Assembly (NCBI GenBank): GCA_009692015.1
Contig: SIAB01000004.1
Span: 1 to 41,183 of the forward strand
Direction of reading: 5' to 3'
Origin: Phycisphaerales bacterium
GTDB taxonomy: Bacteria > Planctomycetota > Phycisphaerae > Phycisphaerales > SM1A02
DNA: 41,183 nucleotides
Below are positions 4,997 through 39,913 of the stretch, in pieces (positions within the stretch are counted from its first letter, which is position 1; each line of letters starts with the position of its first letter). Both the position numbers and the translations under genes were made by a program. Under the pieces are notes generated by a model. It searched no databases and was not told the origin of the DNA. It saw only the letters and a program-made list of their open reading frames with translations.

Positions 4997-6457
4997 TCAA
5001 CTCGCCAGTGCAATATTGATGCAGACGATCAACCCATTGTTGATCCCGTGCGCGACCATGCACGAGATCAGACTGCCGCGCGTTTCGCGTGCTAGGCAAA
5101 ACGCAAAGGCGAGGGCCCCGAGGATTGGAATGAAGAGAACACCTTGGGGGTGGATCGCCGCAAACATGAGGCTCGATCCAAGTGCCGATGCGACAAATGA
5201 CGCGCCGCGTCCCCACCCCATCGAGATGTCTCGTAAGTGTCGAAAGAGCACGCCACGAAAGACGATTTCCTCGACAACTGGTGCTGCGACGGCGGCAAGC
5301 AGCAAGAGAAGGAGGCGATCCCAGAGCGAACCCTCGGCAATTGCCTGCTGAATGGGATGACTCGCCGAAGCGAATTCTTGGTTGAGCACGAGAGACATCA
5401 CGAACGCGATCGCAGCGCCGACGATGACCATCGGAATCGCCGTCCCGTAGGTGGTAAAGCCGTAGCCAACTTCCCGCCAAATGCCACGCCCGCGGTGCAG
5501 CCCGACATCGCGACAGACTTGGCTCCAGGAGATCGCGGCTGACCCTGCCGCGCTTCTGCGAAGCGGGATCGTGAGCGCCACCAGCGGCGCGAACATCAAG
5601 ACAACCTGCACGATGAGCGCGAGTCCACCTGACAATCGGTCGGAGCGACTTGCGAAGATCGCAACGCCGACTGCCGACAGGAGACTCAGCCCGAACCACA
5701 CCGCGAGGATCCACGGAAGACTCGACCCCGACTGGGAGGGTTCTGCGAGTGGGTTAGCCAGGGTGTTCTGTGCCCAGCGAATTGCCAAGACCACCAGCCA
5801 AATGCATCCGCTGATCCCGGCGATCCCCGCAACGCAGGCAAAGACCAAGAACGAGATGAAAATTCCAAGCGCGCTCCGGCCGAGCGCCGACTCGAATGCG
5901 GGATCGGTCTCTGCCGTCGAGGCGATCAACTGGCCGTACCAGCCGAGATTCTTGGCGAGGGTCTGCTCTTGCTCATCCGTGAGATCCATCGCACCATCGC
6001 GATCCTGCACTTCCTGGATCGCTTGTTCGACGAGCGCAGCACTCTCCACGAAACCTGCCGGCGCAAGGTCTGGGTCTTCGGTCACCCGCGCTATCAGGGA
6101 CCCAACGGTGGTCAGCGCGAGGTCCGCCTCTCCCAGCCGTGCCAGCAGGATTGCGCCGCAGAGGTTGGTCACCGCGCCCGCCGAAGAGAGCAGAAGCGGC
6201 TCGATCTGCGCGCGAAACGCCGAACGACCCTGCCCAGTGGTATCGAGCGACACAAGGGTCAACAAAAGCTTGCCCATCAGGACATCCTTGAAACCCTCCA
6301 TCGGCACAGCAACAGATGACGCGCCATCAACCTCGGCTGCGATGCCGTCGACCGGATTGTCATCCTCTCTGAGGAGCGAATCGAGTGCTATCCAAACGCC
6401 AGCGCAACACAAGATGGCGATCCAAGCGGCGACCAATGAGGTTCTGCGAGTCCACAT
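4997..6457 (-). CDS. CPBP family intramembrane metalloprotease
   Basis: This is an integral membrane protein of 486 residues with a C-terminal CPBP (Abi/CAAX-protease-like) domain. The three CPBP motifs are visible: VVEEIVFRGVLFRHLRD (EExxxR), the FAAIHPQG segment, and CMVAHGINNGLI with the last His and Asn. The N-terminal half has a signal-anchor (residues about 9-27), a polar extracytoplasmic stretch of some 150 residues and further membrane segments; this half is not a known domain to me. CPBP proteins include Rce1-like proteases and bacteriocin-immunity proteins, so the substrate is open. I chose ATG 6457 because a TAGCGT -10 box ends 8 nt before it; the longer frame to 6538 would run through the rplM promoter. 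Confidence 0.85.
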   Translation of the reverse strand: MWTRRTSLVAAWIAILCCAGVWIALDSLLREDDNPVDGIAAEVDGASSVAVPMEGFKDVLMGKLLLTLVSLDTTGQGRSAFRAQIEPLLLSSAGAVTNLCGAILLARLGEADLALTTVGSLIARVTEDPDLAPAGFVESAALVEQAIQEVQDRDGAMDLTDEQEQTLAKNLGWYGQLIASTAETDPAFESALGRSALGIFISFLVFACVAGIAGISGCIWLVVLAIRWAQNTLANPLAEPSQSGSSLPWILAVWFGLSLLSAVGVAIFASRSDRLSGGLALIVQVVLMFAPLVALTIPLRRSAAGSAAISWSQVCRDVGLHRGRGIWREVGYGFTTYGTAIPMVIVGAAIAFVMSLVLNQEFASASHPIQQAIAEGSLWDRLLLLLLAAVAAPVVEEIVFRGVLFRHLRDISMGWGRGASFVASALGSSLMFAAIHPQGVLFIPILGALAFAFCLARETRGSLISCMVAHGINNGLIVCINIALAS

Positions 6458-6465
6458 GACTCGGA

Positions 6466-6494
6466 ACGCTATCAGCAAGCCATTCCCTTGACAG
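6466..6494 (-). promoter_or_regulatory. Predicted leaderless promoter of the CPBP gene
   Basis: Reading the minus strand: CTGTCA (6494-6489), 17 nt spacer, TAGCGT (6471-6466), then 8 nt to the ATG at 6457. Its -35 box overlaps the rplM -35 box (TTGACA 6488-6493) on the other strand. Confidence 0.5.
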
Positions 6495-6515
6495 TTTCGC
6501 GCTTCTCGGTACGCT
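6488..6515 (+). promoter_or_regulatory. Predicted promoter of rplM-rpsI
   Basis: Perfect TTGACA at 6488-6493, 16 nt spacer, TACGCT at 6510-6515. Gives a leader of about 45 nt before the rplM ATG. Confidence 0.65.
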
Positions 6516-6564
6516 TTTCGGTCCAACTGAATCGTCAAGACGAGCGCCCGAAGGACTCAACCTC

Positions 6565-7005: not shown

Positions 7006-7008
7006 CCC

Positions 7009-7497: not shown

Positions 7498-7517
7498 TTC
7501 GGCTCACCGAATTTTTT
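7497..7517 (+). terminator. Rho-independent terminator of rplM-rpsI
   Basis: ATTCGG (7497-7502), loop CTCA, CCGAAT (7507-7512), with a run of six T at 7512-7517. The stem begins with the last base of the rpsI stop codon. Confidence 0.8.
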
Positions 7518-7543
7518 CGTGCGATTGACGAGCCCAGGCGCTG

Positions 7544-9265
7544 TCATGCTGTTGTTGCGATGGCTCTCCCAAGCCGCGCTGCGATCACGCTGACCGGTTT
7601 TTGTTGCAACGCGGCAATCTCTGCGATCGTCATGGGATGGTTCGCAAACGCGTGCGATCCACGCATTCCGAGTCGGAGCTGCCACAGCGATCGATCTGGG
7701 GCATCGTGCGCGATCCGATCGACTCTCGCTTCGATCGTCGATAGCGGAATCTGCCATCGGCACTGTGCATCGAGAGGATCGCACCAGGGCAATGTGGGCC
7801 CAGCGCCTGCGGCGTGCTTTGCGTTCGGTCGCGCGACCCCGAGGAGGCGACGATCAAGTTGAAGTGAGACCGCTTGTTCGAGTCGAACGCGAGCACTGGC
7901 GATGTGCGCGGGATCCGACTCGCGGACGACGACCAAGAGGGATTCGGCCGCCAGTTCCAGGATTCCCTGGAGCGTGTGTGGCGCGAGGCTGGCGATCTCG
8001 CCGTCGCTCCACACGCGAACGCGGGTGACGATCGCGGGCATCGCACTGCCGAGCAGAGAACGCAACAAAAGACGCGCCCACCGCAGATCTGTTTCGATGC
8101 GATCCAGAACTGCCTCGCTTGGTCGTGTTGATGGAAGTTGCTCCACCGCAGTCCGCGCGGACCAATGGAGAAATCGAACTGCCATCAATCTGGCGCTCTC
8201 ACCTTTCGAACTCTCGCCTTTCGCGCCATCGCCCCCCACCCGAGTGCGCTGAACCCTCGCGGATCGAGATCCTTCGATGCTTCGCAGCGCGGTCCACGCC
8301 TGGGCATCCTCGATCGGATCGGCGCTGACCAGATTCGATCGCACCGCGAGGGCGCCGAGAATCACCTCGCGCGCATCCGCGCGAAAAAATGTCTTTGGAA
8401 TCTCAACGAAGTCGGGCGAAATGGCAACCGCATGAATGCGCAGGAACTGCGCGCGGGCGCGGTGGATGAGTCGGTCGGCCGTCTGCTGTGAGCAGGCGAG
8501 ATTTCGGGCGATCAGAGAAACTCGCATCCCGCGCTGCCAGGCCGCGAGTGCGCTTGCCGCACGCCGCAGATCGCGGGGGCCCCTTCCAATCAGTTTCCCA
8601 GCGGTCGCAGCACGATTTCGCACGATCAACGATCGCACCGTTTCCGTGCTCACCCCGACCTCGCCTGCGATTGCGCGCGCTGCATTTGAAACGCGCCGCT
8701 CGCCGGTCATCGCGAGAGCGCCAGCTCGCCGCAGAATTTCACGCTGCGCGCCGGTCGTCAATCGCTTGGTGCGCGCAGCGCGCGCGAGGGACTTCGCGTG
8801 GGTCGCATAAAACGCGGTCGCATCCGCCGTTCGAATTCCCAGCACGACTCCACCAACCTGGGCAAGGAGTGATCGCCGCATCCAACAGGCTGCGAGCCCG
8901 CGCTTTCTCAAACGGTGGATCGTCCGTTCGCTCACACTCCACGATCGAGCCGTTTGCGCAATCGTCTGGGCGTCCGCGGCGCGCTCTGGCGCACGGTGGC
9001 TCAGTCGCAGTACCAATTCACAGAGGTCGCGCCGCAGGGACTCTCCAATGACTTGCAATTCACTTTCGGCAGTGCGCCGCTCGGCTCGGAATTGGGTGAT
9101 CTGCCACACAACATCGCTCCACCCATATAGAGCATCGGGCTCGGTGCGTTCGATCAGAATGCGCGTTGCGGCGAGCTGACGGCGCGCTGTTGCTTCTGAA
9201 CCAAACGCAAGCTGCTCTGACAAACTGCGCATTTCTTCGAGGATGAACCCGCCCGATCGCGGCAT
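7544..9265 (-). CDS. Diverged sigma-70-like protein with several helix-turn-helix segments
   Basis: This soluble 573-residue protein is rich in Arg and Ala. I see four helix-turn-helix-like segments: about 100-125 (TIAQTARSWSVSERTIHRLRKRGL), 192-216 (AARAIAGEVGVSTETVRSLI), 245-272 (RGMRVSLIARNLACSQQTADRLI) and the very C-terminus (MTIAEIAALQQKPVSVIAARLG). Their order, and the region VVWQITQFRAE near residue 55, match my memory of a planctomycete sigma-70 family with a long N-terminal HTH region. In such proteins the last segment would be sigma region 4. The expected conserved region 2 (promoter melting and -10 reading) is not recognisable between about residues 370 and 520; only helix-rich, Arg-rich sequence remains. 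A regulator or pseudo-sigma is therefore more likely than a working sigma factor. The ATG at 9265 follows a TACGCT box by 7 nt. It lies 17 nt downstream of alr. Confidence 0.6.
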   Translation of the reverse strand: MPRSGGFILEEMRSLSEQLAFGSEATARRQLAATRILIERTEPDALYGWSDVVWQITQFRAERRTAESELQVIGESLRRDLCELVLRLSHRAPERAADAQTIAQTARSWSVSERTIHRLRKRGLAACWMRRSLLAQVGGVVLGIRTADATAFYATHAKSLARAARTKRLTTGAQREILRRAGALAMTGERRVSNAARAIAGEVGVSTETVRSLIVRNRAATAGKLIGRGPRDLRRAASALAAWQRGMRVSLIARNLACSQQTADRLIHRARAQFLRIHAVAISPDFVEIPKTFFRADAREVILGALAVRSNLVSADPIEDAQAWTALRSIEGSRSARVQRTRVGGDGAKGESSKGESARLMAVRFLHWSARTAVEQLPSTRPSEAVLDRIETDLRWARLLLRSLLGSAMPAIVTRVRVWSDGEIASLAPHTLQGILELAAESLLVVVRESDPAHIASARVRLEQAVSLQLDRRLLGVARPNAKHAAGAGPTLPWCDPLDAQCRWQIPLSTIEARVDRIAHDAPDRSLWQLRLGMRGSHAFANHPMTIAEIAALQQKPVSVIAARLGRAIATTA

Positions 9266-9272
9266 AGGCAAG

Positions 9273-9278
9273 AGCGTA
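9273..9278 (-). promoter_or_regulatory. -10 box of the sigma-like gene (leaderless type)
   Basis: TACGCT on the minus strand, 7 nt before the ATG and directly after the alr stop codon; identical to the rplM -10 box. No good -35 is visible. Confidence 0.4.
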
Positions 9279-9282
9279 TTGC

Positions 9283-10554
9283 TCAGCCGGTCATGATGCC
9301 CGGCGATTGCCGCGTGATTCGCACATCCGCGCCGACAACTCCGCTGGCCTCGCCAACATAACGGCGTGGGATGCGGGGATTCAAGCGACAGAGCAGTTCG
9401 TATGCGTGTGCGCCGATTGCGCCTGCCACGCGCGGCAGATAATTTCGGGCGCTCGGACGGGATCCATACACCTCGGCAGTCATGCCGATGAAACCCTCTC
9501 CGTACGCAAGAGATGGTGGGACATCGGTGAGATCAACCACCACCTGATCCATGTTGACCGCGCCCACGACTGGCACTTCCCACGATCGTGTTCCCGCGCT
9601 GGTTTCGCTCATCACCCGAATCCAGCGATCATCGCGCGTGTGTGCGGCAACGGGATATCCGTCGAAGTATCCAATCGGAACAACACCGAGTCGCGAGGGG
9701 CGGCCGGCCTTCCAAAGCGATCCGTAACCCACAGCGACATCGCGGTCCACTTCCTTCGTGTGGACAATCGACGACTCCCACCGCACAATCGACTCGAGGG
9801 ATAGTCCGTCGCTCGCACCCGAATCGCTGGGCTCTCCCGCTCCATCTGACAGATGCGCCAAACCCGTCCAAGCCAATCCCGTGCGGATCATGGTGCGGTG
9901 AAAGCGCGGATCGCGAAAGACTGCGTGCGAATTGGCGACATGCACGATCGCATCTGCTGGAATGTGCAGCGCGTGATCGCAGAGCAGTCGCTCAAAGAGA
10001 TCCATCTGATCGTGGGTTCGCACCGCATCGCGACGACTATCCGAAAAATGGGTGAAGACTCCCGCGAGCCGCAGTCTGCGCTCGTCAGCAATGCAGGCGA
10101 GCGTGCGACCAGCCTCGTCAACGGTCGCGCCGCCGCGGGACATACCGGTATCGACCTCGAGATGCACCGGGATCGGACCGCCGCCGAGCTGTTCGGCGAT
10201 GGCGGCAAGTTCGAGCGCGTGTGCCTGCCCGTGAACCACCAGATGCAGCCGCCCTGCCAGGAGAAGTCGGTGGCACTCGCCGCCTGTTTCAATCTCTCGC
10301 ACCGGCATCAGGATCAACTGCGGTGTCGTCACCCCCGCCGCAGAAATCGCCTCCGCTTGGCCAATGCTGTAGACCGCCAACATGCTCGCGCCGCTCGCCG
10401 CAAGTTGCCGGGCGATCCGCGGCGCGCCGAGACCATATCCGTCAGCCTTCACGACGGCGCAGAGATCGCAATGTGGCGATATCAGCCCTCGAATCGCGGT
10501 GATGTTGCGGTCGAGCGCCGTGAGATCAATGTTGAGGAAACTCGTACTGCGCAT
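9283..10554 (-). CDS. alr: Alanine racemase
   Basis: This PLP enzyme interconverts L- and D-alanine, supplying D-Ala for peptidoglycan; murA in this window serves the same pathway. It has 423 residues. Key residues are visible: the PLP-binding Lys36 in AVVKADGYGLG, EVDTGMSRGG, GVFTHFSDS, the second catalytic base Tyr277 in AVGYGSLWK, then GVVPIGYFDGYP and VVGAVNMDQ. The last replaces the commoner GRVCMDQ, so the Arg that usually hydrogen-bonds there is changed. Candidate starts are ATG 10554 (chosen, fits the family N-terminus) and TTG 10569. It is divergent from the helicase gene, and the two starts are only 54 nt apart. Confidence 0.93.
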   Translation of the reverse strand: MRSTSFLNIDLTALDRNITAIRGLISPHCDLCAVVKADGYGLGAPRIARQLAASGASMLAVYSIGQAEAISAAGVTTPQLILMPVREIETGGECHRLLLAGRLHLVVHGQAHALELAAIAEQLGGGPIPVHLEVDTGMSRGGATVDEAGRTLACIADERRLRLAGVFTHFSDSRRDAVRTHDQMDLFERLLCDHALHIPADAIVHVANSHAVFRDPRFHRTMIRTGLAWTGLAHLSDGAGEPSDSGASDGLSLESIVRWESSIVHTKEVDRDVAVGYGSLWKAGRPSRLGVVPIGYFDGYPVAAHTRDDRWIRVMSETSAGTRSWEVPVVGAVNMDQVVVDLTDVPPSLAYGEGFIGMTAEVYGSRPSARNYLPRVAGAIGAHAYELLCRLNPRIPRRYVGEASGVVGADVRITRQSPGIMTG

Positions 10555-10571
10555 CCTTGCTTCGCTCAAAG

Positions 10572-10600
10572 TTGTATCGGCATCATTCGCTCGCTATCAT
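10572..10600 (+). promoter_or_regulatory. Predicted leaderless promoter of the DEAD-box helicase
   Basis: TTGTAT (10572-10577), 17 nt spacer, TATCAT (10595-10600), then 8 nt to the GTG start at 10609. The predicted transcript would begin at or next to the start codon. Confidence 0.55.
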
Positions 10601-10608
10601 CAAGGTTC

Positions 10609-11988
10609 GTGACAACGAATGAAACCCCTCCCAGCGGTTCCGCTGGACGATCCCTCGACATCTTCGCTCAGGATCAGACATTTGCCTCGCTGGGGCTGAC
10701 GGAGTCGATCCTTCAAGCCCTCAATGATCGTGGATTCAAGCATCCAACGCAGATTCAGGCTGATCTGATTCCGATCGTTTTGGCGGGCAAAGACTGCTTA
10801 GGGCAGGCCAAGACAGGGACTGGAAAGACGGCGGCTTTCGCGCTGCCGGCACTGCAGTTGATCGCGAAAGATGCCGCGCTCTCTGTGCTGATCTTGGTGC
10901 CAACGCGCGAACTCGCGATTCAGGTCGCCAAGGAAATCCACGACTTTGCTCGGCACACTGGTCACCATGTCGTCCCGATCTACGGCGGCCAACCGATCTC
11001 CACTCAAGTTCAGAAACTTCAGCGCGGACCGGCGATCATCGTTGGAACGCCGGGACGGGTGATGGATTTGCACGAGCGGCGCTTGCTCTCCTATGACAAG
11101 GTGCAGTACGCGGTGCTCGACGAAGTCGATCGCATGCTGGATATCGGCTTTCGCGAGGACATCCGCCGCATTCTGGGATCGATGAAGCACCATCCCCAGA
11201 CGGTCTTTGTCTCGGCGACGATCTCCCCGGACATCGAGAAGTTGGCGCGGCAGTATCTGCGCGACCCAGAGAAGATCGTGACCACGGCAAAGAGCCTGAC
11301 CGTCTCGCAGGTGCGCCAGTCCTACTTCGCAGTGGAGCGCTGGGACAAGCGGCGGCTCCTGCTGCATCTGCTGCGAAAGGAAGAACCCGCACTCACCCTG
11401 GTCTTCTGTCGCATGAAGCGCACCGTCGATGAGGTCACCGCATTCCTTGCCAAGAACAGTATCGATGCGCATCAGATGCACGGCGATATGTATCAGACCA
11501 AGCGCGACAAGGTGATGGACAAGTTGCGGGAGGGTGGTCTTTCTGTGCTTGTTGCCAGTGATTTGGCGTCGCGCGGGCTCGATGTCGACGACATCAGCCA
11601 TGTCATCAATTACGACCTTCCAGAGGATCCCGAGGTGTATGTGCACCGCATCGGTCGCACCGCGCGGGCTGGTCGCGAGGGTGTTGCATGGAGTTTCGTC
11701 TGCCCAGATCAGGGCGAGCTGCTCACAGCCATCGAAAGCCTTGCCAACATCGAGATACCGGTGGCGATCTACGACGATTTTGGGCCGGGACCCGTGCCAT
11801 CCGACATTCATGCCCAGCGCGAGCTGGATGAGATTCGCAAGCAAGCATCGATGGAATCGAAGTCGCGAAATCTGCTTGCCAACAAGCCAGATGCGACCGA
11901 TCTCACGCGTTTCCCAGGTGGACTTGTGCCAACACAACCTCCCCCAAAGCGGCTTGGCGGACGATTGACAACGCGTCGCCGACATTGA
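10609..11988 (+). CDS. DEAD-box RNA helicase with a DEVD motif II
   Basis: This is an ATP-dependent RNA helicase, likely acting in ribosome assembly or mRNA handling. It has 459 residues. Motifs in order: F..LGL and the Q motif GFKHPTQIQ (42-50), Walker A AKTGTGKT (67-74), PTRELA, TPGR, motif II DEVD (171-174) in place of DEAD, SAT, then VASDLASRGLDVDDISHVINYD and the arginine-finger HRIGRTARAGR. A short basic tail (KRLGGRLTTRRRH) closes the protein. The open frame reaches back to 9853, but that part is antisense to alr; GTG 10609, 8 nt after a TATCAT box, gives the family start. psuG follows after 10 nt. Confidence 0.93.
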   Translation: MTTNETPPSGSAGRSLDIFAQDQTFASLGLTESILQALNDRGFKHPTQIQADLIPIVLAGKDCLGQAKTGTGKTAAFALPALQLIAKDAALSVLILVPTRELAIQVAKEIHDFARHTGHHVVPIYGGQPISTQVQKLQRGPAIIVGTPGRVMDLHERRLLSYDKVQYAVLDEVDRMLDIGFREDIRRILGSMKHHPQTVFVSATISPDIEKLARQYLRDPEKIVTTAKSLTVSQVRQSYFAVERWDKRRLLLHLLRKEEPALTLVFCRMKRTVDEVTAFLAKNSIDAHQMHGDMYQTKRDKVMDKLREGGLSVLVASDLASRGLDVDDISHVINYDLPEDPEVYVHRIGRTARAGREGVAWSFVCPDQGELLTAIESLANIEIPVAIYDDFGPGPVPSDIHAQRELDEIRKQASMESKSRNLLANKPDATDLTRFPGGLVPTQPPPKRLGGRLTTRRRH

Positions 11989-13089: not shown

Positions 13090-14211
13090 ATGAGTACAGT
13101 TCGAGGGATTCTCGAATGGGCCAACGGCCCCGAGGGTCGCATCAGACAGTTCAACGATGGCTTGATCGAACATCCAGACGATCCCGTTGTGCCATTGGCA
13201 CTCGCGAACAGCTACGCGCTGCGTCCTTGCGTGAGCGTGGTCGCTGAGGTTGCTCAGGTTGAGGTCAAGACCCGCCGCGGCCGCTACACCAAGGCGATGG
13301 TTGAGCGGCTGGTCGAAATCGAAGGACTTGCTCCCGAGCTCTTTTCGCAGCGAAAGCCCTTTGCGGAACTCACGGCACTCGACCCCTGCCCCCGCATCAC
13401 ACTGGAGTATCCGGGATGCCCTCCGGCGAACAGACTCATCGATCTCTTCTGCCCCATCGGGTACGGAACGCGTGGACTCATCGTGGCTCCGCCGAAGGCT
13501 GGCAAGACCATCCTGCTGCAGAATCTTGCCTACGGCATCAAGCACAATCATCCAGAAATCGAATTGGTTGCTCTGCTCATCGACGAGCGCCCCGAAGAGG
13601 TGACGGATTTCAAGCGCAATGTTCCTGCGCACGTGCTCGCTTCGAGCAATGATCAGGATGTTGAACGCCACACGGCACTGGGGATTCTCGCCATCGAACG
13701 CGCCCGGCGCATGGTCGAGGCCGGTCGCGATGTCGTGGTGCTCTTGGATTCCATCACCCGACTCGGGCGGGCGTTCAACAATTCGCGGCGCTACGGCTCG
13801 GGCGGACGCACCATGTCGGGCGGTCTGGACTCGCGGGCGTTGGAGATTCCAAAGCAGCTCTTCGGTGCCGCGCGCAAGGCTGAAGAGGGCGGCTCACTCA
13901 CGATCATCGCGAGTTGTCTGGTGGATACCGGCAGCCGCGCCGACCAAATCATCTTCGAAGAGTTCAAGGGCACGGGCAATATGGAACTGATTCTCGATCG
14001 CTCCATCTCGGAGAAGCGCCTCTTTCCCGCCATCAATCTGGCGGCCAGCGGTACCCGCAAGGAGCACCTGTTGTTGACCGAGCGCGAACTCAAGACAATC
14101 ACTGCGCTGCGCAGACGACTCATCGCGATGCCACCGCATGTGCAAATCGAACAGCTCCTCGCGGCGCTGAAGCGATTCCCAACCAACGAGGCGCTGATCG
14201 GCAGTTCGTGA
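13090..14211 (+). CDS. rho: Transcription termination factor Rho, short form
   Basis: Rho is the hexameric RNA helicase that ends untranslated transcripts. It has 373 residues against about 420 in E. coli, because the N-terminal helix bundle is missing and the protein begins at the cold-shock-like RNA-binding domain (VRGILEWANGPEGRIRQF). Where E. coli has the aromatic RNA-binding GFGFLR, this protein reads GPEGRIRQ, so the primary site looks altered. The motor domain is intact: Walker A APPKAGKT (about 133-140), LIDERPEEVTDF, Walker B VVVLLDSITRLGRAFN, the Q loop SGGLDSRAL, and the R loop FKGTGNMELILDR. ATG 13090 has no clear Shine-Dalgarno. It is followed, 63 nt later, by the MCE pair. Confidence 0.95.
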   Translation: MSTVRGILEWANGPEGRIRQFNDGLIEHPDDPVVPLALANSYALRPCVSVVAEVAQVEVKTRRGRYTKAMVERLVEIEGLAPELFSQRKPFAELTALDPCPRITLEYPGCPPANRLIDLFCPIGYGTRGLIVAPPKAGKTILLQNLAYGIKHNHPEIELVALLIDERPEEVTDFKRNVPAHVLASSNDQDVERHTALGILAIERARRMVEAGRDVVVLLDSITRLGRAFNNSRRYGSGGRTMSGGLDSRALEIPKQLFGAARKAEEGGSLTIIASCLVDTGSRADQIIFEEFKGTGNMELILDRSISEKRLFPAINLAASGTRKEHLLLTERELKTITALRRRLIAMPPHVQIEQLLAALKRFPTNEALIGSS

Positions 14212-14261: not shown

Positions 14262-14267
14262 TACTCT
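14262..14267 (+). promoter_or_regulatory. -10 box of the MCE gene pair (leaderless type)
   Basis: TACTCT ending 7 nt before the ATG at 14275. No convincing -35; weak taken alone, supported by the recurring spacing elsewhere in the window. Confidence 0.35.
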
Positions 14268-14274
14268 TCCTCGC

Positions 14275-15519
14275 ATGAGTGGACCGAAACTGAAGACGGG
14301 CTTCTTTGTCCTGAGTGGCCTCACCTGCTTCGCGCTCGTCGCAATTGTGCTTGCAAAGTTTGATTGGTTCAGCGACGCAAGTCAATACATCGTTCGATTC
14401 ACGATCAATGACGGGGTGATGGGTCTTGGAAAGGGGTCCGCCGTTCAGGTGGGCGGGCTCTCTCGCGGAAGTGTCGAATCGGTCCACCCGATCTATGACG
14501 CCACTGGTGTGATGACATCGCTCGATGTTCACATTTCACTTGAGAACGATGTCACGCTTTACGCCAATGCCCAAGCGATGCGCCTGATGCCACTTCTTGG
14601 CACGGTTGCAACGCTCAACTTCGTGTCGATCGGAGATGGAGACAAACGGCTTGCGGCGGGCTCCACCATCAATGCGGTGGCCAGCGGCGGAATACTCGCA
14701 ACTCTCCTCGGACCGACCAATGCGATGAAGTCCGATCAGATTGTCGAGAACGCGCTTCAATTCAGCGTCTTTCTTGCCAAGGTGCCCGGCGACTACGAAA
14801 CCAAGGTCGTGCCGATGATCGACAACGCCGCAACGGTCATAGCTGAGTTTCGGACCGATTACAGCGATTGGCGGACGAAAATTGGCGTGACCCTGACCTC
14901 CGCGCAAGGCTCGATGCAGAAACTGGATTCCAGCCTGACCGAAGTTCAACAACTTGTGGCCCGCAACGGACCCAAGATCGACACCACCCTTGCAAATCTC
15001 GATGTCAGCGTCGCTTCGGCGAAGGACGCGCTGCACCACTTGAATCAGGAGACGATCCCGCTGATCGACAGCACGCTGCGGCACACGGAGAGCGCGGTCG
15101 ACGAGTTCGGCAAGTCGATTGAACTCGTCCACGCGCTGCTCTTGGAACGGTCGCCTGATATCGCCGAGACGCTGTCGAGCATTCGCACTGCGGCAGGACA
15201 AATGAAGTTGGCATCGATGGAGATCCGGCGCAGTCCCTGGAAGATCCTCTACCAACCCAGCAGCGATCAGGTCGCGCACGAGAATCTCTATGAGTCCGCG
15301 CGAAGCTTTGCCATGGCCGCTGGCGACCTGCGTGCCGCCGGCGACGCGCTGCGATTGGTCATCGAGCGCGATCCTGGAAAGTACGATGCCGATATGAAAT
15401 TCCGGGACGCGGTGCAGGCGATGGTGCTCGATGCGATTGCGAAGTATGAATTGGCGCAGCAGCAACTGAACAGCGTGCTGATGGCCCCCGCGCCGGCTGG
15501 CGAATCGAAGGCGAAGTAA
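14275..15519 (+). CDS. MlaD/MCE-domain membrane protein, first of a pair
   Basis: This is a membrane-anchored MCE protein of 414 residues, of the family that forms hexameric lipid-carrying rings or tubes between membranes. There is one N-terminal transmembrane anchor (GFFVLSGLTCFALVAIVLA, about 8-26). The MCE domain follows (about 38-130: YIVRFTINDGVMGLGKGSAVQVGG, SRGSVESVHPI, and the late LGTVATLNFVSIGDG). The rest is a long helical segment likely to form the needle or coiled coil. No MlaE-like permease or MlaF-like ATPase is linked here. It is followed immediately by a second MCE-like gene. Lipid transport to the outer membrane is inferred only from the family. Confidence 0.85.
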   Translation: MSGPKLKTGFFVLSGLTCFALVAIVLAKFDWFSDASQYIVRFTINDGVMGLGKGSAVQVGGLSRGSVESVHPIYDATGVMTSLDVHISLENDVTLYANAQAMRLMPLLGTVATLNFVSIGDGDKRLAAGSTINAVASGGILATLLGPTNAMKSDQIVENALQFSVFLAKVPGDYETKVVPMIDNAATVIAEFRTDYSDWRTKIGVTLTSAQGSMQKLDSSLTEVQQLVARNGPKIDTTLANLDVSVASAKDALHHLNQETIPLIDSTLRHTESAVDEFGKSIELVHALLLERSPDIAETLSSIRTAAGQMKLASMEIRRSPWKILYQPSSDQVAHENLYESARSFAMAAGDLRAAGDALRLVIERDPGKYDADMKFRDAVQAMVLDAIAKYELAQQQLNSVLMAPAPAGESKAK

Positions 15520-18311: not shown

Positions 18312-18317
18312 TAGGAT
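18312..18317 (+). promoter_or_regulatory. -10 box of the ferredoxin-NADP reductase gene
   Basis: TAGGAT ending 9 nt before ATG 18327. A possible -35, TTGTCG at 18286-18291, is 20 nt away, longer than ideal. Confidence 0.35.
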
Positions 18318-19352: not shown

Positions 19353-19382
19353 TTCGACACCGTTGTCGATGACTGGCATACT
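19353..19382 (+). promoter_or_regulatory. Possible extended -10 promoter of the TPR gene
   Basis: TTCGAC (19353-19358), 18 nt spacer, TGG plus CATACT (19377-19382). It would start transcription about 10 nt before ATG 19399 and rules out the upstream ATG at 19363. Confidence 0.4.
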
Positions 19383-19398
19383 AGAATTCGAAACCCAC

Positions 19399-24255: not shown

Positions 24256-24265
24256 ATCATAGACT
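24256..24265. promoter_or_regulatory. Overlapping divergent -10 boxes for ygfZ and the M42 peptidase
   Basis: Minus strand TATGAT at 24261-24256, 6 nt before the ygfZ ATG (24249). Plus strand TAGACT at 24260-24265, 6 nt before the M42 ATG (24272). The boxes share two bases, so RNA polymerase should not bind both at once. Both mRNAs would be leaderless. Confidence 0.5.
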
Positions 24266-28400: not shown

Positions 28401-29098
28401 GGACCCGTTGCACAGTTCAATCCGAGCGAGGCGATCGGCAGCCCCTTGAGCGCGTTGACAACGGCGGCGATGTCCGACCCCAAGAGCATCGTCCCAGTGG
28501 TTTCCATAGTCACCGAAACGAGGATGGGAAGATCGCGCGTCGTGCGCTTCGCCGCCTCGATCGCTTCGAGGCATGCCGTCACCGCACACTTGATTTGCAG
28601 GAGGTCTTGACAGGTCTCGATCATCAAGCAGTCGACACCACCATCGATGAGCCCTCGGGCTTGCTCGCGGTATGAATCCAACATCCCCGCCCAGGTTGCC
28701 TGGCCGAGTGTGATCAGCTTGGTGCCCGGCCCCATCGACCCAGCCACAAATCGCGGGCGCCCTGGCTCGCCATACTTGTCGCACGCCGCACGGGCGATTT
28801 GCCCAGCGCGGAGATTCAGCTCGTAGACCCAACTGACCATCTCGGCATCGAACTCTGCGGCGACGAGTCGGTTGGTGCCGAATGTGTCGGTCTCGACAAC
28901 ATCCGCCCCGACAGCAAGAAAACTTTCGTGAATGCGTTGGATCAGATCGGGCCGCGAGCGAACCAGGATGTCGGTGCAGTTATCCCGTCCGAGATAGTCA
29001 CCGTGGGCACAGTCCGCGCAGGCGTGAATCGAAGTGCCCATCGCTCCGTCAAAGAGCAGGGTGCGTTGATCGAGTTGAGCGAGGAACGTGGTCGGCAC
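25499..29098 (-). CDS. metH: Cobalamin-dependent methionine synthase, full length
   Basis: MetH moves the methyl group of 5-methyltetrahydrofolate to homocysteine through methylcobalamin. It has 1199 residues, with all five expected parts. First is homocysteine binding (about 1-320: [12 protein letters not shown], and zinc ligand Cys in [11 protein letters not shown]). Then folate binding (about 345-600: [25 protein letters not shown]), the four-helix cap (about 640-735) and B12 binding ([14 protein letters not shown] with DxHxxG). Last is the reactivation domain (about 960-1199: [38 protein letters not shown], ending LGVTENF-like [18 protein letters not shown]). Start GTG 29098 follows a promoter with 6 nt leader space. 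No cobalamin riboswitch fits in front of it. Confidence 0.97.
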
Positions 29099-29104: not shown

Positions 29105-29133
29105 AGCCTATCCACCGGCGGGAGGCATTTCAA
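29105..29133 (-). promoter_or_regulatory. Predicted leaderless promoter of metH
   Basis: Minus strand TTGAAA (29133-29128), 17 nt spacer, TAGGCT (29110-29105), then 6 nt to GTG 29098. This is the best-supported leaderless promoter in the window because the -35 is also good. Confidence 0.6.
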
Positions 29134-29197
29134 CCGTTCATCCGGATGGACGGATGGACGATCCGCACCTCCCCGCACGCCAGGCGCAAAGGGATGC

Positions 29198-29203
29198 GAT
29201 ACT
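29198..29203 (+). promoter_or_regulatory. -10-like box of the S41 protease gene
   Basis: GATACT ending 8 nt before ATG 29212; four of six bases match TATAAT. No clear -35. Confidence 0.3.
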
Positions 29204-29211: not shown

Positions 29212-30621
29212 ATGCGTGCACGGCTGGCAATTCTTTTCCTCGCAATCCTCCCGCCGGCCCTGCTCGGATGCCAAACCCATTCGACGACAACCGTGGCGCA
29301 GAAGCTTCCAGCGAATCTCCCCGCTGCTCCCCCAGATTCCTCGAACCCAAAGTCAAATGGCGAGGTCTTCGATCAAGTGTGGGAGATCATCTTGAAGTCT
29401 CATGTGGGCCCAACCATCGCGAGTGACCAGTGGAGCCAGCGGCACGATCAGTATCGCGAGCGCGCCCGCGAGGCTCGCAGTCAGCACGCGCTTCGCATCG
29501 TGCTGAGCGAACTGCTGCAGTCGCTCGATGCAAGTCATTTCGCGATCATCCCACAATCAGCGACTGCTTCGACGGCCCCGTCGGGCGGATGGTCTGGACT
29601 CACCCTGCAAGTCTTTGGCGATGAAGTGCTCGTGACCCACATCGCAGAGGAGAGTCCTGCCAAGCGTGCCGGGGTCCACCAGGGATGGCGACTCCTCACC
29701 GCCGCGGACCACTCCATGGATGAAGTTGTCAAGTCGTTCGGCACTCCGCAAACCTCGCTCGAGCGGCTCGCGCGCGACCATGCGCTCGTCGCATGCCTTA
29801 GCGGTCGGCTCGGCTCGAGCGTCGACGCGCTCTTCGTCGATGCAGAGGGAACAGAGCACGCCGTGGCGATCGCACTTTCGGCGCCACCTGGACAGCTGGT
29901 CACGATGGGAAATCTCCCGCCATTCGCGGCGGAGTCCAAGTGGCACTGGCTCAGCGCGGATGAGATTGGGCAACTCGGTGGTGATCCCGCCCGCACCGGT
30001 CGCGTTGGTTACTTGCGATTCAGCGTCTGGTTGACCCCGCTCGCCGCGTCGATCGATGAAGCGCTGCGCACCTTTCGCGCCGCGGATGCGGTGGTCATCG
30101 ACCTTCGTGGCAACCCAGGCGGTCTTGGACTGATGGCCACGGGAGTGGCAGGTCACTTTCTTCCAGCTCCAACATCGCTGGGCACGATGCGTGGTCGCGA
30201 CATGAAACTTGAGTTTCGAACCAATCCAAGAACGGTCGATCCAGAAGGAAACTTGATCGGCACTTTTTCTGGACCGCTGGCAATTCTGATGGACAGCCAC
30301 TCCGGAAGCACCTCCGAAATTTTCGCGGCGGGGCTGCTCGACATCAAGAGGGCACAGCCATTCGGGCAGACTTCTGCGGGCGCAGCGCTTCCCGCGACCA
30401 CGCACAACCTCAAGAACGGCGATGTACTTCTGCATGCAATTGGCGACTTCCGCACACCCTCGGGCGGTCTGGTTGAGGGGATCGGCGTGCGTCAAGTGAT
30501 CGGCAATCCCCCAACGCGCGCTGACTACACTTCCTCCCCCGATCCAGAGCTTCGCGATGCCCTTCGTTGGATCGCAAGTGAGAGAGTTCCAACAAACGCA
30601 ACGCCGAGTCCAACACCATGA
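29212..30621 (+). CDS. S41-family serine protease, lipoprotein
   Basis: This is a C-terminal-processing-type peptidase of 469 residues anchored as a lipoprotein: signal MRARLAILFLAILPPALLGC has its lipobox LLGC at Cys20. A helical N-terminal part is followed by a PDZ-like segment (about 120-175: LTLQVFGDEVLVTHIAEESPAKRAGV) and the S41 core (VGYLRFSVW, VIDLRGNPGG, ILMDSHSGSTSEIFAAGLL). The catalytic Ser is probably Ser366. The usual catalytic Lys of the CtpA/Prc type, in GxKTFGKG, is replaced here by GQTSAGAALP, so the enzyme belongs to the Lys-less S41 group or uses another base. The start of the next gene overlaps its stop (ATGA). Confidence 0.87.
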   Translation: MRARLAILFLAILPPALLGCQTHSTTTVAQKLPANLPAAPPDSSNPKSNGEVFDQVWEIILKSHVGPTIASDQWSQRHDQYRERAREARSQHALRIVLSELLQSLDASHFAIIPQSATASTAPSGGWSGLTLQVFGDEVLVTHIAEESPAKRAGVHQGWRLLTAADHSMDEVVKSFGTPQTSLERLARDHALVACLSGRLGSSVDALFVDAEGTEHAVAIALSAPPGQLVTMGNLPPFAAESKWHWLSADEIGQLGGDPARTGRVGYLRFSVWLTPLAASIDEALRTFRAADAVVIDLRGNPGGLGLMATGVAGHFLPAPTSLGTMRGRDMKLEFRTNPRTVDPEGNLIGTFSGPLAILMDSHSGSTSEIFAAGLLDIKRAQPFGQTSAGAALPATTHNLKNGDVLLHAIGDFRTPSGGLVEGIGVRQVIGNPPTRADYTSSPDPELRDALRWIASERVPTNATPSPTP

Positions 30622-33887: not shown

Positions 33888-33893
33888 TACGAT
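33888..33893 (+). promoter_or_regulatory. -10 box of the HIT gene (leaderless type)
   Basis: TACGAT ending 7 nt before ATG 33901, 15 nt after the permease stop; no -35 visible. Confidence 0.35.
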
Positions 33894-33900: not shown

Positions 33901-34422
33901 ATGACACATCAGGATCTTTGGGCACCTTGGCGGATGACTTATCTGCGCGAACTGGAGGCCGCGGAGTCCGACCTGCGCGCTTCGGGCTCTTCGCCCTCCA
34001 CAAACTTTCTGCGCGCGGCGTGGGATGCCGTCGACAACGCCGCGGCGCATCATGTCGTCTTTCGAAACGACCACGGTCTCATCATGCTCAACCGATATCC
34101 CTACGCCAATGGTCATGTTCTGGCGGCACTTGCTGACCCTCGCCCGACCTTGATGGACTATGCCCCGGCCCAACGCGCGCAGCTTTGGATCCTCGTCGAC
34201 ATCGCAGTCGATCTGGTCGACCGCGCCTTTCATCCCCAAGGTGTCAATGTCGGACTCAACCAAGGGCGGGCTGCGGGCGCCGGGCTTCCGGAGCACCTGC
34301 ATGTGCATGTCGTGCCGCGCTGGAATGGTGACACCAACTTCATGGCCACGGTTGGGGCGATTCGCGTGATCCCCGACTCGCTCGAACAGTCGTGGCAGAT
34401 CCTGCGCAGCGCGGTCCGTTGA
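33901..34422 (+). CDS. HIT-domain nucleotide hydrolase/phosphorylase (Ap4A-type)
   Basis: This is a histidine-triad protein of 173 residues. The motif GLPEHLHVHVVPRWNGDTNFM carries the HxHxH triad. The N-terminal LWAPWRMTYL and the NRYPYANGHVL box are the signature of the Ap4A phosphorylase-like branch found in actinobacteria and others, so a dinucleoside polyphosphate substrate is likely. No linked partner. Start ATG 33901 fits the family's N-terminus (MTHQDLWAPWRM). Confidence 0.92.
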   Translation: MTHQDLWAPWRMTYLRELEAAESDLRASGSSPSTNFLRAAWDAVDNAAAHHVVFRNDHGLIMLNRYPYANGHVLAALADPRPTLMDYAPAQRAQLWILVDIAVDLVDRAFHPQGVNVGLNQGRAAGAGLPEHLHVHVVPRWNGDTNFMATVGAIRVIPDSLEQSWQILRSAVR

Positions 34423-34444: not shown

Positions 34445-35800
34445 GTGAAGTTCCCCATCGCTGACTATTTCTTTTCTGCCCTGAACAACTTTGTCGCGGG
34501 GTTCCATCCCCGTTCGCTCCCGCCCATGCTTCGGGCGAACTACGCGCGCGAACTGTTTTCATGGCTGCTTCTGCCCTTGATGCTCGGGGCCATCGAGGGT
34601 GGAACGATGGCGATCATCGTCAAGAAGATGTTTGAGGGAGCGCCCGGTGTGCACCCAGCGCAACTCGACTTCGCGGTGGCTGCCGTCAGCGCAGCACCAA
34701 ACATTGCCAACCTCGCCAGTTTTCTTTGGGCAGGCCTCGCCCATGGGCGAACCAAGGTGCCATTCATCAGCCGGCTGCAATTGGCGACTTGCTCCTGCGT
34801 GGCGATGATCGCGGTCGTGCCGCTCTCGTCGGGTGGACTCCTCGCGCTCACGATCCTCATTTTCGTCGCCCGCATTCTCTGGACGGGTGTCATCACCATT
34901 CGCACCGCGGTCTGGCGCAACAACTATCCCCGCGCCAACCGCGCGCTCATCGCCGGCAAGATGGCCATGGTGCAAGCTGTCATGCTCGCGATCACCGGCC
35001 TCGTGATTGGCGAGGCAATGGACATCGCGCCTGGATCCTTTCGATACCTCTTCCCAGCCCTCGCACTGGCGGGCTTCGCGGGAAACGCGATCTACCGAAA
35101 GGTGCGACTCCGTGGCCAAAGGCGACTGCAACGGGCGGAACAGGAAGGACGAGCCGCTGGCGCTGCGCGCGTCGATCCGCGGCGACTCTTTTCGCTGCTG
35201 CGCGAAGACCGCTTCTACGCCCGATTCATGTGGTGGATGTCCGTCTTTGGTCTCGGCAATCTGATGATGGGACCGCCGCAGGTCATCGTGCTCAACGATG
35301 AGTTCCACACCTCATATCTCGAGGGGATCCTGGCCACGACCGTGATTCCCCTCATGGTGATGCCGCTGGCGATACCGGCGTGGTCACGGTTGCTCTCGCG
35401 CACCCATGTGATCGCCTTTCGATCCATTCACGGATGGACCTTTGTGCTCGCCTCTGCAGCGATGTGGATCGCAGTCCTCATGCACTCGCTGCCGCTCATG
35501 TATTTCGCAAGTGTGCTGCTGGGACTTGGCTTCGCAGGCGGCGCGCTCGCGTGGAATCTCGGTCATCACGACTTCGCCCCAGCGCACCGCGATAGCGAAT
35601 ATATGTCGCTCCATGTGACCCTCAATGGCATCCGGGGTGCCCTCGCCCCCTTTCTCGCCGTGGCAATCTATTTTCCGATGGCTCGCGCGGGATGGGGGGG
35701 GTGGTTCTTCTTTCTTTGCTTCCTGATCAACCTCGTTGGGCTCTTCGGCTTCATGTCTATGCGGCGGGACATTCCCCCGCGAAAGCCCGCAGAAATTTGA
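34445..35800 (+). CDS. Major facilitator superfamily transporter
   Basis: This is a polytopic membrane protein of 451 residues with about 12 predicted helices, in two halves joined by a basic cytoplasmic loop (about 215-250: RKVRLRGQRRLQRAEQEGRAAG). The MFS fold is assigned from helix number and the loop; no substrate motif is evident. Start GTG 34445 lies 22 nt after the HIT stop. A weak TCGGAT stands 6 nt before it. The stop codon TGA is part of the extended -10 of the rpsA promoter. Confidence 0.82.
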   Translation: MKFPIADYFFSALNNFVAGFHPRSLPPMLRANYARELFSWLLLPLMLGAIEGGTMAIIVKKMFEGAPGVHPAQLDFAVAAVSAAPNIANLASFLWAGLAHGRTKVPFISRLQLATCSCVAMIAVVPLSSGGLLALTILIFVARILWTGVITIRTAVWRNNYPRANRALIAGKMAMVQAVMLAITGLVIGEAMDIAPGSFRYLFPALALAGFAGNAIYRKVRLRGQRRLQRAEQEGRAAGAARVDPRRLFSLLREDRFYARFMWWMSVFGLGNLMMGPPQVIVLNDEFHTSYLEGILATTVIPLMVMPLAIPAWSRLLSRTHVIAFRSIHGWTFVLASAAMWIAVLMHSLPLMYFASVLLGLGFAGGALAWNLGHHDFAPAHRDSEYMSLHVTLNGIRGALAPFLAVAIYFPMARAGWGGWFFFLCFLINLVGLFGFMSMRRDIPPRKPAEI

Positions 35801-35806
35801 TATATT
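35798..35806 (+). promoter_or_regulatory. Extended -10 promoter of rpsA
   Basis: TGA-TATATT: TG at 35798-35799 followed by TATATT at 35801-35806, directly on the MFS stop codon. No -35 match; the TG extension could compensate. It gives a leader of about 87 nt. Confidence 0.6.
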
Positions 35807-35899
35807 CACCAACCCGCCACTGAGATGGTCTCAGGGGCAATCGCCTTGCGGTCGAGCATCGTGCTCGTCCGCGCACTTTGGAACGCACCCCCCCCTCCC

Positions 35900-37696: not shown

Positions 37697-37760
37697 GTGA
37701 TCCCACTCGACTGAGTCAAAAGATTCGACTGATCGAAGCGCTCGCGAGAACGCGCGATCC

Positions 37761-37805
37761 AAAAGCAACGACGGCCTGCGAGTTTTCGCAGGCCGTCGCG
37801 CTTTT
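37761..37805. terminator. Strong terminator after rpsA, probably bidirectional
   Basis: A perfect 13-bp stem: CGACGGCCTGCGA (37769-37781), loop GTTT, TCGCAGGCCGTCG (37786-37798). AAAAGC on the left and GCTTTT on the right extend the symmetry. The T run on the plus strand is short (four), so it may need the stem strength. Confidence 0.75.
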
Positions 37806-37888
37806 CGGCACATCCTGCGCACGCGCGCTGGGATGTGTCTCCCCATCCGCCCCACCGCCCCCCTCAGGGGGGGTGGTCGTGCCGAAAA
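37802..37888 (+). other. Structured spacer between rpsA and the next gene
   Basis: The rest of the 348-nt gap 37697-38044 holds nested inverted repeats: TTTTCGGCAC (37802-37811) with GTGCCGAAAA (37879-37888), a 7-bp CACATCC (37809-37815)/GGATGTG (37831-37837), and CCACC...CCCCC (37852-37863) with GGGGGGGTGG (37867-37876). The first two share CAC and so exclude each other. No coding sequence is credible here. It may be a small RNA, a second terminator or simply read-through DNA. Confidence 0.4.
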
Positions 37889-38032
37889 AGGCGGTCGTAT
37901 CAGAGGATTGCGAGAAAGGACAATATCGTGAGCAGCGCAAGACGCTGGCGCGTGACCTCGTATGGAATGATCCGATGAATGAACATCTCAACTCTTTCGC
38001 AACAACTCTCGATCAAACAAATGATCGACCCG

Positions 38033-38038
38033 TACACT
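38033..38038 (+). promoter_or_regulatory. -10 box of the exported AMMECR1-like gene (leaderless type)
   Basis: TACACT ending 6 nt before ATG 38045. No -35 found. Confidence 0.4.
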
Positions 38039-38044
38039 CGAAAG

Positions 38045-39913
38045 ATGCCCCGACTTTGGCGAATTGCCAATACTTGTCTTTGTTTTTTGCTCGTTATTCC
38101 GCTTTTTGCCCATTCCACGCCACCATCTGCCTCTGACTCACTCGCCGCCTGGACCGCCTGCAGGTCATCTATCGACCGCGGCGCCGTCGCAGAAACGGCG
38201 GAGATTCCCGGTTTTTCAGAGGTTTGGAGCGCCGTGGTCATCCTACGCAAGGATGGAAAGGTGCTTGGGGTAGGAGATTCGCACGAGGCGAACCCGATCT
38301 TTGGGGCGCTCAAGACGGCGCTGGCCGATGCACGGGTGAGGACTTTCCAAAGTGGAGCGAATCCAGAGTCGATCAAGTGGAATCAGGTCACGCTCGAACT
38401 TGAATTGGGATCGAAACCAGAACCACTCGTTGGTGGTACATACGAACAAGCCGCACACTTCATCGAGCCGGCACTCGATGGGATCGCAGTGCGGCGGGGC
38501 GGACAATGGGCGGTTGCGCACCCCGCTGTGTTGCAGGCTCTCAACGCCGCAGCGACACCCGATCAATCATTGCTCTCACTGGTGATGCAGTTGGGACTTC
38601 CAGCGCGAGAATTCGCGGCGCTCCCCACGACAGAACGCGTCGGACTCTATCGATTCGATGCCACGCGCCTCGTGCAGCCCACCCCGGAGATGGCAGCGAC
38701 CTTTGTCCACCGCGGTTCTCGCATCGAACCAACACCTGATCCGATCCATGCCGCTACCTCGGCGCACGAAGCCGCGCTGGCCATCTTCGAGTGGTTCGAG
38801 CGGTCGTTCATCCGCCCGAGCACGCGCGCTGCCGATGCGTCCATCGGTGAGCAGCAAGCGCTCGAGATGCTCGGACTTCGCGGCAACTATCTGCCTGCCG
38901 AGGGAAGGGATGAGTCGATCAATGCCGCACCAGCCGAGCAAGCGCTCGCTGCCTTTGCGATCGCGCGATTTGCAACACTCAACAGTTCCGATGCCGACCT
39001 CGCCCGGCGCGCCCGCCTGCTTTCCGTGGACATTCTTGCGGCGCTGCACAAGGTCGCACCCATCGAGCGCGATCCGCTGGCGGATCGGAAGACACTCGCC
39101 TGGATCGTGATGACCACCCTCGAGCTTGGGAGTTGCGTTCAAGGCTCCCCCGCCGCAACTGCGCTGGGCGCGAATGCCAAGGATCTGCTGGCCAAGGAAG
39201 TGCTTGCGAACGCCAAGGATCCCGAGGGAATCCTGCGCGGCGATCCCTTGGAGCAGGCGCTCACGGCAGCGGCGCTGGCGACCTTCGATCGCGCTGGTCA
39301 ACCACTCGTCGATCGCGCCGCCCTCGTCGCTGCGATCGATTCACAGTGGACCGGCGATGCGCGCAGCTCACTCGTGGGCGTGATGGGCTGGCTGCTCTGG
39401 GCTGATCGACAACTCGGGGCGATTCCAGCCACGCACACCATCATCGCCCGCGCCGCGCGCGCGGCACTCTCGCGAGCTCAACTTGGATTGCAGATCGGGT
39501 TGCAATCGCAGTCGAGCGACTCGGGCGAATCACCAACGGCTGCCCGCGTTGCGCCCGACCTGGTTGGCTCGCTCGCACTCGCCGGAATCGGAAGCAAGGG
39601 TGCAACGGCTCAGACCGCGCGGCCTGGATACGCGCTGGCACTCATGATGACTGATCCAACACTCACCCTCGTTGGAGAGCAGTACCGCGCGCGCGCCATG
39701 CAGATCGGCATCATTCGGTTCCTGCGCCAATTGGGATATGACGAAGTTTCGTGCTACCTCGTGCGCGATTTGGAACGCGCCAGTGGGGCCATCCGCACCG
39801 CTCCGTGGGAGAGCAGCGTTGCTGTGGCAGGAAACGCGATGGCGCTCTTGTGTCTCGAAGAGTCTGCATTTTCGGTCAATTCGCTCAATTTGGTGCTAGA
39901 GTCTTCCAAGTAG
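38045..39913 (+). CDS. Exported protein of unknown function with an AMMECR1-like N-terminal segment
   Basis: This is a secreted protein of 622 residues. An N-terminal signal peptide (MPRLWRIANTCLCFLLVIPLFAHS) supports the start at 38045 rather than the upstream ATG at 37979. The part near residues 60-110 (SAVVILRKDGKVLGVGDSHEANPIFGALKTALADAR) resembles AMMECR1-fold proteins. The remaining 450 residues are helix-rich, Ala-rich sequence without a motif I recognise. The role is unknown. It is followed by the secretin-N-like gene 27 nt later, so a shared envelope function is possible. Confidence 0.7.
   Translation: MPRLWRIANTCLCFLLVIPLFAHSTPPSASDSLAAWTACRSSIDRGAVAETAEIPGFSEVWSAVVILRKDGKVLGVGDSHEANPIFGALKTALADARVRTFQSGANPESIKWNQVTLELELGSKPEPLVGGTYEQAAHFIEPALDGIAVRRGGQWAVAHPAVLQALNAAATPDQSLLSLVMQLGLPAREFAALPTTERVGLYRFDATRLVQPTPEMAATFVHRGSRIEPTPDPIHAATSAHEAALAIFEWFERSFIRPSTRAADASIGEQQALEMLGLRGNYLPAEGRDESINAAPAEQALAAFAIARFATLNSSDADLARRARLLSVDILAALHKVAPIERDPLADRKTLAWIVMTTLELGSCVQGSPAATALGANAKDLLAKEVLANAKDPEGILRGDPLEQALTAAALATFDRAGQPLVDRAALVAAIDSQWTGDARSSLVGVMGWLLWADRQLGAIPATHTIIARAARAALSRAQLGLQIGLQSQSSDSGESPTAARVAPDLVGSLALAGIGSKGATAQTARPGYALALMMTDPTLTLVGEQYRARAMQIGIIRFLRQLGYDEVSCYLVRDLERASGAIRTAPWESSVAVAGNAMALLCLEESAFSVNSLNLVLESSK

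Follow-up and report, generated by a model that had tools for sequence, protein, structure and literature searches.

Leaderless genes of the TANNNT type make up on average 19% of the genes in Actinobacteria and 39% in Deinococcus-Thermus (PMC3160421, Zheng 2011). The available text of that study places the hexamer about 12 bp upstream as counted from its first T and finds the TAnnnT form in high-GC genomes; it does not name Planctomycetes, although some may be among the genomes grouped in its row "Other Bacteria" (8 of 20). For Deinococcus-Thermus a -10 element adjacent to open reading frames (ORFs) was described at about 30% of ORFs and experimentally validated as a -10 region (PMC12340547, whose Fig. 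S7 scans the bacterial domain and may include Planctomycetota). Bidirectional promoters arising from -10 symmetry are covered by PMC10268837, according to which divergent transcription start sites (TSSs) usually lie 18 bp apart. Here we analyzed a stretch of 41,183 nucleotides from a Phycisphaerales bacterium, in the following called the window, in which many start codons closely follow a TANNNT hexamer. We consider these hexamers very probably to be sigma70-type -10 elements, giving leaderless or near-leaderless mRNAs.

G000, which has the window as its contig C62, is a metagenome-assembled genome (MAG) of 1.74 Mb in 98 contigs with a completeness of 85.8%. Distances are given as the number of nucleotides between the end of TANNNT and the start codon. 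The original prediction had named ten genes in the window with such a hexamer, and all ten were found at the distances it gave (8, 7, 8, 7, 9, 6, 6, 6, 7 and 6 nt). The predicted -10 elements and their retention in same-genus orthologues are:

6466..6471, minus strand: TAGCGT of the CPBP (Rce1-like) gene, 8 nt before the start at 6457; kept in 6/6 orthologues
9273..9278, minus strand: TACGCT of the HTH/sigma-like gene, 7 nt before the start at 9265; kept in 5/7
10595..10600, plus strand: TATCAT of the DEAD-box helicase gene, 8 nt before the GTG at 10609; kept in 8/8, always at 8 nt
14262..14267, plus strand: TACTCT of the MCE-like gene, 7 nt before the start at 14275; kept in 7/7 at 6-9 nt
18312..18317, plus strand: TAGGAT of the NAD-binding oxidoreductase (FNR) gene, 9 nt before the start at 18327; kept in 9/9 at 6-10 nt
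24256..24261, minus strand: TATGAT of the ygfZ-like gene, 6 nt before the start at 24249, overlapping the M42 -10 by 2 bp; kept in 10/10
24260..24265, plus strand: TAGACT of the peptidase M42 gene, 6 nt before the start at 24272; TAGACT invariant in 18/18
29105..29110, minus strand: TAGGCT of metH, 6 nt before the GTG at 29098; kept in 10/10 at 6-8 nt
33888..33893, plus strand: TACGAT of the HIT-domain gene, 7 nt before the start at 33901; kept in 6/7
38033..38038, plus strand: TACACT of the 38045 gene, 6 nt before the start; kept in 5/5 usable orthologues

With the starts of the original prediction, 10 of the 34 genes called in the window carry TANNNT at 6-9 nt (p=4e-8 at a chance level of 3%). 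None of the ten upstream sequences shows a Shine-Dalgarno (SD) core, defined as AGGA, GGAG or GAGG at 4-11 nt before the start and here judged by eye. Since starts could be picked to fit, we built a start-caller based on codon statistics (coding potential) only and blind to any upstream signal. It agreed on six of the ten starts and shifted those of CPBP, HIT, the 38045 gene and ygfZ; at its own starts 6 of 34 window genes have the hexamer at 6-9 nt (p=6e-5). Aligned orthologues favor the originally predicted starts for the four shifted genes.

A genome-wide peak at 6-9 nt had been proposed as a check and was indeed observed. Our sample comprised the window and 20 further stretches of G000 (433 kb of 1.74 Mb), from which the caller returned 371 genes; 362 with 60 nt of upstream sequence were kept and nine dropped. 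TANNNT lies at 6-9 nt in 77 of the 362 starts, with 7.4 expected, and excluding the window leaves 71 of 328 against 6.5. At distances of 0 to 5 nt the counts are 0, 0, 1, 1, 0 and 0, at 6 to 13 nt they are 34, 16, 12, 15, 9, 6, 3 and 1, with a background of 1.85 per position, giving a sharp edge at 6 nt. In the range of 5-12 nt we counted 95 starts, compared to 23.4 in base shuffles and 11-18 in four upstream control windows. The hexamer has the consensus TA[GC]N[CA]T within GC-rich flanks, which fits the -10 element of a high-GC genome. Its spacing of 6 nt equals the 12 bp and its form the TAnnnT given in the accessible part of PMC3160421, whereas the strong preference for C or A at position 5 differs from the signal described there.

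Conservation was assessed in ten same-genus genomes, using one to three stretches of the syntenic region each. For every orthologue the nearest ATG or GTG within 8 codons of the aligned start was taken and TANNNT scored at 5-12 nt; orthologues with an unaligned N terminus or no start nearby were dropped before counting (4/83 for the claimed genes, 7/21 for extra candidates, 41/138 for other genes). The claimed genes keep the hexamer in 76 of 79 orthologous starts, a figure from related sequences of a motif-selected set, while their four control windows further upstream contain it in 0/79. Other window genes have it in 2/97 orthologues (control windows 1, 0, 4 and 7). Restricting the count to starts aligned at residue 1 gave 66/68 for claimed, 10/11 for extra and 0/54 for other genes. 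The hexamer persists while its spacing drifts by 1-4 nt (metH 6-8, FNR 6-10) and neighboring bases turn over; as judged from these alignments, its position is conserved by selection. Three extra candidates, two of them absent from the original prediction, keep TANNNT in 11 of 14 orthologues, S41 in 0/3. They are listed with an upstream element of the helicase gene:

1756..1761, minus strand: TACCCT, candidate -10 of a peptidase M50 gene, new here, 10 nt before the start at 1745; kept in 2/2 at 8-10 nt
19382..19387, plus strand: TAGAAT, candidate -10 of a TPR-protein gene, new here, 11 nt before the start at 19399; kept in 9/9 at 7-12 nt
29198..29203, plus strand: GATACT, near-miss -10 of the S41 gene, 8 nt before the start at 29212, preceded by TGC (TGN) as in an extended -10
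10572..10577, plus strand: TTGTAT, -35-like element of the helicase gene, exactly 17 bp before its -10; TTGTAT-N17-TANNNT found in the window and 8 same-genus loci

The S41 gene had been described as a near case, and no TANNNT is present there. The sequence at 29195-29203 reads TGCGATACT, i.e. TGN followed by GATACT; at the same place relatives have GATACT (G001, G008) or CATACT (G015). Perhaps this is an extended -10 in which the first T is dispensable. In the divergent alr/helicase region (10554-10609) the window and eight same-genus loci share TTGTATCGGC, and alr on the opposite strand may use this element too.

The motif, its spacing, enrichment, conservation and taxonomic distribution are observed; where the transcripts begin, and that their translation is leaderless, we infer from them. 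With a 6-nt spacing the start codon would supply the first base of the mRNA, and with 7-12 nt transcription would start a few bases before it. The mRNA leader would then be absent or too short for an SD site, and the ribosome would have to start on a 5'-terminal or near-terminal AUG or GUG. In other bacteria ribosomes initiate on leaderless mRNA through a 70S or IF2-dependent start on the 5' AUG.

The most compact arrangement was found between ygfZ (minus strand) and M42 (plus strand), which are divergent and whose start codons at 24249 and 24272 are 23 bp apart. The interval consists of a 6-nt spacer, ATCATAGACT (24256-24265) and a second 6-nt spacer. The two strands of ATCATAGACT read TATGAT and TAGACT, and these hexamers overlap in TA. 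In 18 of 18 same-genus genomes, including G000 itself and leaving out the fragmentary copy of G014, both starts are located exactly 6 nt from their own hexamer; the start codons are ATG except for GTG at ygfZ in four genomes. Nine of the ten block positions are invariant across these genomes and TANNNT is present on both strands in all 18. In the spacers only one of 12 positions is invariant, two are nearly so and nine vary, the conserved ones being the CG just after TAGACT and the A just before the block. Spacers that are fixed in length and mostly free in sequence fit 6 nt separating a -10 element from the first transcribed base. We regard the block at 24256-24265 as a candidate shared bidirectional promoter. 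Such sharing was also seen in an 18-nt divergent pair of G000 and in a 17-nt pair of another family of the order (f2); TAGACTA or the complementary sequence is present in either pair. Bidirectional promoters built on -10 symmetry reportedly go back to Warman 2021.

These cases resemble the promoters of PMC10268837, as far as described there, in having overlapping opposite -10 elements between divergent units. They differ at M42/ygfZ in that the start codons are 23 bp apart compared to the 18 bp TSS spacing, both predicted mRNAs would be leaderless, and hardly anything besides the promoter lies between the two genes.

In G014 (C16:24134-24352) the M42 orthologue matches residues 1-45 and 324-350 only, as if the gene had been largely deleted with its two ends left.

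Close packing was also counted by family, the window belonging to f1 (G000 and G005 of the same genus, G019-G024 of other genera). Divergent pairs at most 40 nt apart, overlaps included, amount to 27/182 in f1, 3/73 in f2 (G030, G034), 0/47 in five other families and 0/14 in E. coli (f1 against all others p=8e-5); some of the f1 pairs come from one locus, M42/ygfZ, counted in different species, and miscalled starts underlie some of the f1 distances. A second form of packing concerns co-directional neighbors. With 9-15 nt between the end of the upstream gene and the following start, the T completing TANNNT is present in 16 of 20 f1 cases after TAA or TAG and in 5 of 30 after TGA (Fisher p=2e-5, which is optimistic given the small counts, some orthologous loci and a range set after seeing examples). 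The corresponding counts are 2/12 and 0/3 in f2 and 1/3 and 1/3 in five other families, and E. coli has 5/14 after TAA/TAG with no TGA cases. In f1 the TA of a predicted -10 element thus seems to come from the stop codon of the preceding gene.

We next compared taxa by the same 5-12 nt count; of 80 named loci 60 were used. Of the 20 others, L193 and L194 duplicate genomes that were already in the sample, and the remainder are contigs that stand alone or have odd labels, or the sole locus from another phylum; two of the 20 carry a planctomycete label (L254, L266). Four Deinococcota loci served as positive control and gave 18/73 starts, 11 of them at exactly 6 nt, in line with the motif and spacing requirement reported in the available part of PMC12340547 for a different phylum; in the present lineage the signal is known from DNA sequence. 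Thirty Rhodobacterales/Rhizobiales loci showed 19/580 with no peak, below the control windows (17-36), and three stretches of E. coli K-12 showed 14/120 (control windows 12-16) with SD cores at 66/120. The excess amounts to about 22% in the genus of the window (G000 95/362, G005 19/74). Other genera of f1 had 11/76 (G019), 8/78 (G020), 9/68 (G023) and 12/79 (G024), as well as 8/77 in G022 (not significant, p=0.11) and 2/19 in the tiny sample of G021. Within the order, f2 reached 33/232 (G030) and 27/234 (G034). No significant excess of TANNNT was detected in the order-mates f4 (4/60), f5 (0/70) and f6 (4/54), the class members f8 (4/69), f18 (8/44) and f20 (6/71) or the phylum members f38 (1/43) and f50 (8/51), and the class member f11 was marginal (6/57, p=0.04); taxon samples of 31-110 genes may miss a signal of a few percent. 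Named sets gave 15/68 in five Phycisphaeraceae-labelled loci, 2/31 in f4, and 16/110 and 11/83 in further sets, mostly of Phycisphaerales loci. The predicted TANNNT mode is patchy within the Phycisphaerales and, among the members sampled, strongest in the window's genus.

The nearest named records of the M42 gene are mostly MAGs of Phycisphaerae, Phycisphaerales or Planctomycetes, with a few odd labels. Records named Singulisphaera (L193), Limnohabitans (L197), Cohaesibacter (L214) and Pseudomonadota (L222) carry an M42 that is 55-83% identical to that of the window.

The two families with the signal differ in their spacing edge. In f1 TANNNT was found 0 times at 5 nt and 57 times at 6 nt, in f2 28 and 18 times (p=2e-13). 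The f2 genomes are unlike each other (18 and 5 in G030, 10 and 13 in G034), and the 5-nt set of f2 has a TACC[CA]T-like form with a C preceding the start codon in 82%. If the edge reflects the distance from the -10 element to the TSS, the RNA polymerases of f1 and f2 would be one nucleotide apart.

The original prediction went further in taking leaderless transcription as the default for non-ribosomal genes. Counted with the two new candidates at 1745 and 19399, 12 of 34 window genes carry the signal, among them 7 of the 10 non-ribosomal divergent starts in the window. Outside the window divergent genes have TANNNT at 45/120 called starts and at 64/119 when alternative in-frame starts nearby are allowed, a way of counting that inflates the numbers and is given with controls. 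For likely leaders of transcription units outside the window, 63/202 called starts have the hexamer at 6-12 nt (26% above background, controls 6-13) and 93/200 flexible starts (37% above background, controls 13-27); genes with a gap of 26-59 nt reach 15/30 at called starts. The 26-37% above background for leaders speak against such a default. Over all 362 starts of G000, 26% have TANNNT (22% above background, 29% with flexible starts) and 82 (23%) an SD core, about 16% above background. Both signals occur together at 9 starts, which as 9/95 of the TANNNT starts is close to the SD background rate of 6-7%, and more than half of the starts have neither. We therefore judge a default improbable: the share is about a quarter of genes, 22-29% above background. 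The predicted TANNNT mode is common and occurs alongside SD-led genes, those of the ribosomal operon among them, and a sizeable group of genes that show neither.

The contrast to ribosomal genes drawn in the original prediction held up. In the first 20 stretches and the genus loci, ribosomal queries from E. coli had matched only rpsL and rpsD apart from weak GTPase hits, and the S10-spc-alpha region was therefore taken as a separate stretch. Its 22 genes (20 ribosomal, secY and rpoA) have TANNNT in 0/22 and an SD core in 14/22 (Fisher p=0.003 against 86/328 with TANNNT). This contrast is partly positional because most of the 22 genes are operon-internal. Orthologues of the window genes rpsP (0/2), rplS (0/4), rplM (0/6) and rpsI (0/2) lack TANNNT, and those of rpsP, rplS and rplM have purine-rich, SD-like stretches upstream. 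Upstream of rpsA the window contains TTGATATATTCA (35797-35808), also found in G005 and G015, which is perhaps the -10 element of a leadered promoter.

Several observations weigh against reading the hexamers as promoters of leaderless mRNAs. When 162 promoters were pooled, no enrichment of a -35 element was detected (TTG occurs 11 times at 15-19 bp, controls 13, 14 and 19), so that in the pooled set the -10 element has to identify the promoter by itself. Co-directional genes with a gap of at least 60 nt have TANNNT in 3/52 called starts, the same as the control, though in 13/51 with flexible starts (controls 3-5). Among tight co-directional genes 20 of 108 carry it, which needs promoters within apparent operons. 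Finally, the claimed genes had been selected for the motif and their orthologues are related, so the 76 of 79 count as support and not as independent evidence row by row.

The hexamer could instead be a translational signal on a leadered mRNA, for example an S1-type A/U-rich or unstructured site. The tight co-directional genes would suit this explanation, and the accessible text of PMC5397173 (Nakagawa 2017) flags its one planctomycete with leaderless and/or S1 signals, being unable to tell leaderless and RPS1 signals apart in that organism. General A/U richness would however not account for the fixed T1, A2 and T6, the C or A at position 5 and the GC-rich flanks, nor for the sharp edge at 6 nt. 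One DNA block serving both strands at M42/ygfZ, the helicase gene with its conserved -35-like element at 17 bp, and the absence of the hexamer from the S10-spc-alpha genes likewise argue for a promoter, and we regard a translational signal as very unlikely.

That the peak is merely an artefact of start choice, caused by in-frame TAA/TAG near ORF starts (6- and 9-nt spacings place these in frame) or by hand-picked starts (4 of 10 differ from those of the codon-only caller), is barely credible, since the distances of 7, 8, 10 and 11 nt are out of frame and still hold 43 hexamers with 7.4 expected (p=3e-19), the peak is present with starts chosen blind to upstream signal, E. coli, f4-f6 and alphaproteobacteria show no significant excess when run through this caller, and orthologues back the originally predicted starts.

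Some gene labels of the original prediction were less well supported than the hexamers. The CPBP product matches Rce1-like (E=5e-17). The MCE (MlaD below cut-off) and sigma-like (HTH_23 match, sigma region 4 below cut-off) labels are weak, and AMMECR1-like was not confirmed for the 38045 gene, which has no Pfam match. At 13090-14211 the window encodes an ATP-synt_ab family protein of 373 aa, possibly transcription terminator Rho. A plasmid search with the window DNA gave no match. No 16S match, from which the anti-SD would be read, was obtained in the MAG. Class weights from an expectation-maximization (EM) mixture of -10, SD and background were dropped, as the components overfit and rotated-sequence controls weighed the same or more; EM motifs were sensible for the large G000 sample, and gene fractions were taken from the fixed-motif counts instead.

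In the open-access PMC literature we found no report of leaderless genes in Phycisphaerae; the available part of PMC10783764 describes none in this class. The mode itself is known, and the Phycisphaerales seem to be a new lineage for it. Whether they are a further bacterial lineage where leaderless genes are expressed on a par with SD-led ones, with packing through a 10-bp double -10 element and stop-codon reuse and with f1 and f2 spacings one nucleotide apart, we consider an evenly balanced proposition. In these MAGs, where the codon-only caller missed four of ten orthologue-supported starts, a hexamer at 6 nt is of practical help in locating start codons and operon boundaries. The one-nucleotide difference between the families is a testable hypothesis on the selection of transcription start sites. 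A Gram-negative, largely uncultured planctomycete lineage would join the few that are rich in leaderless genes, a point of relevance to the evolution of translation initiation modes.

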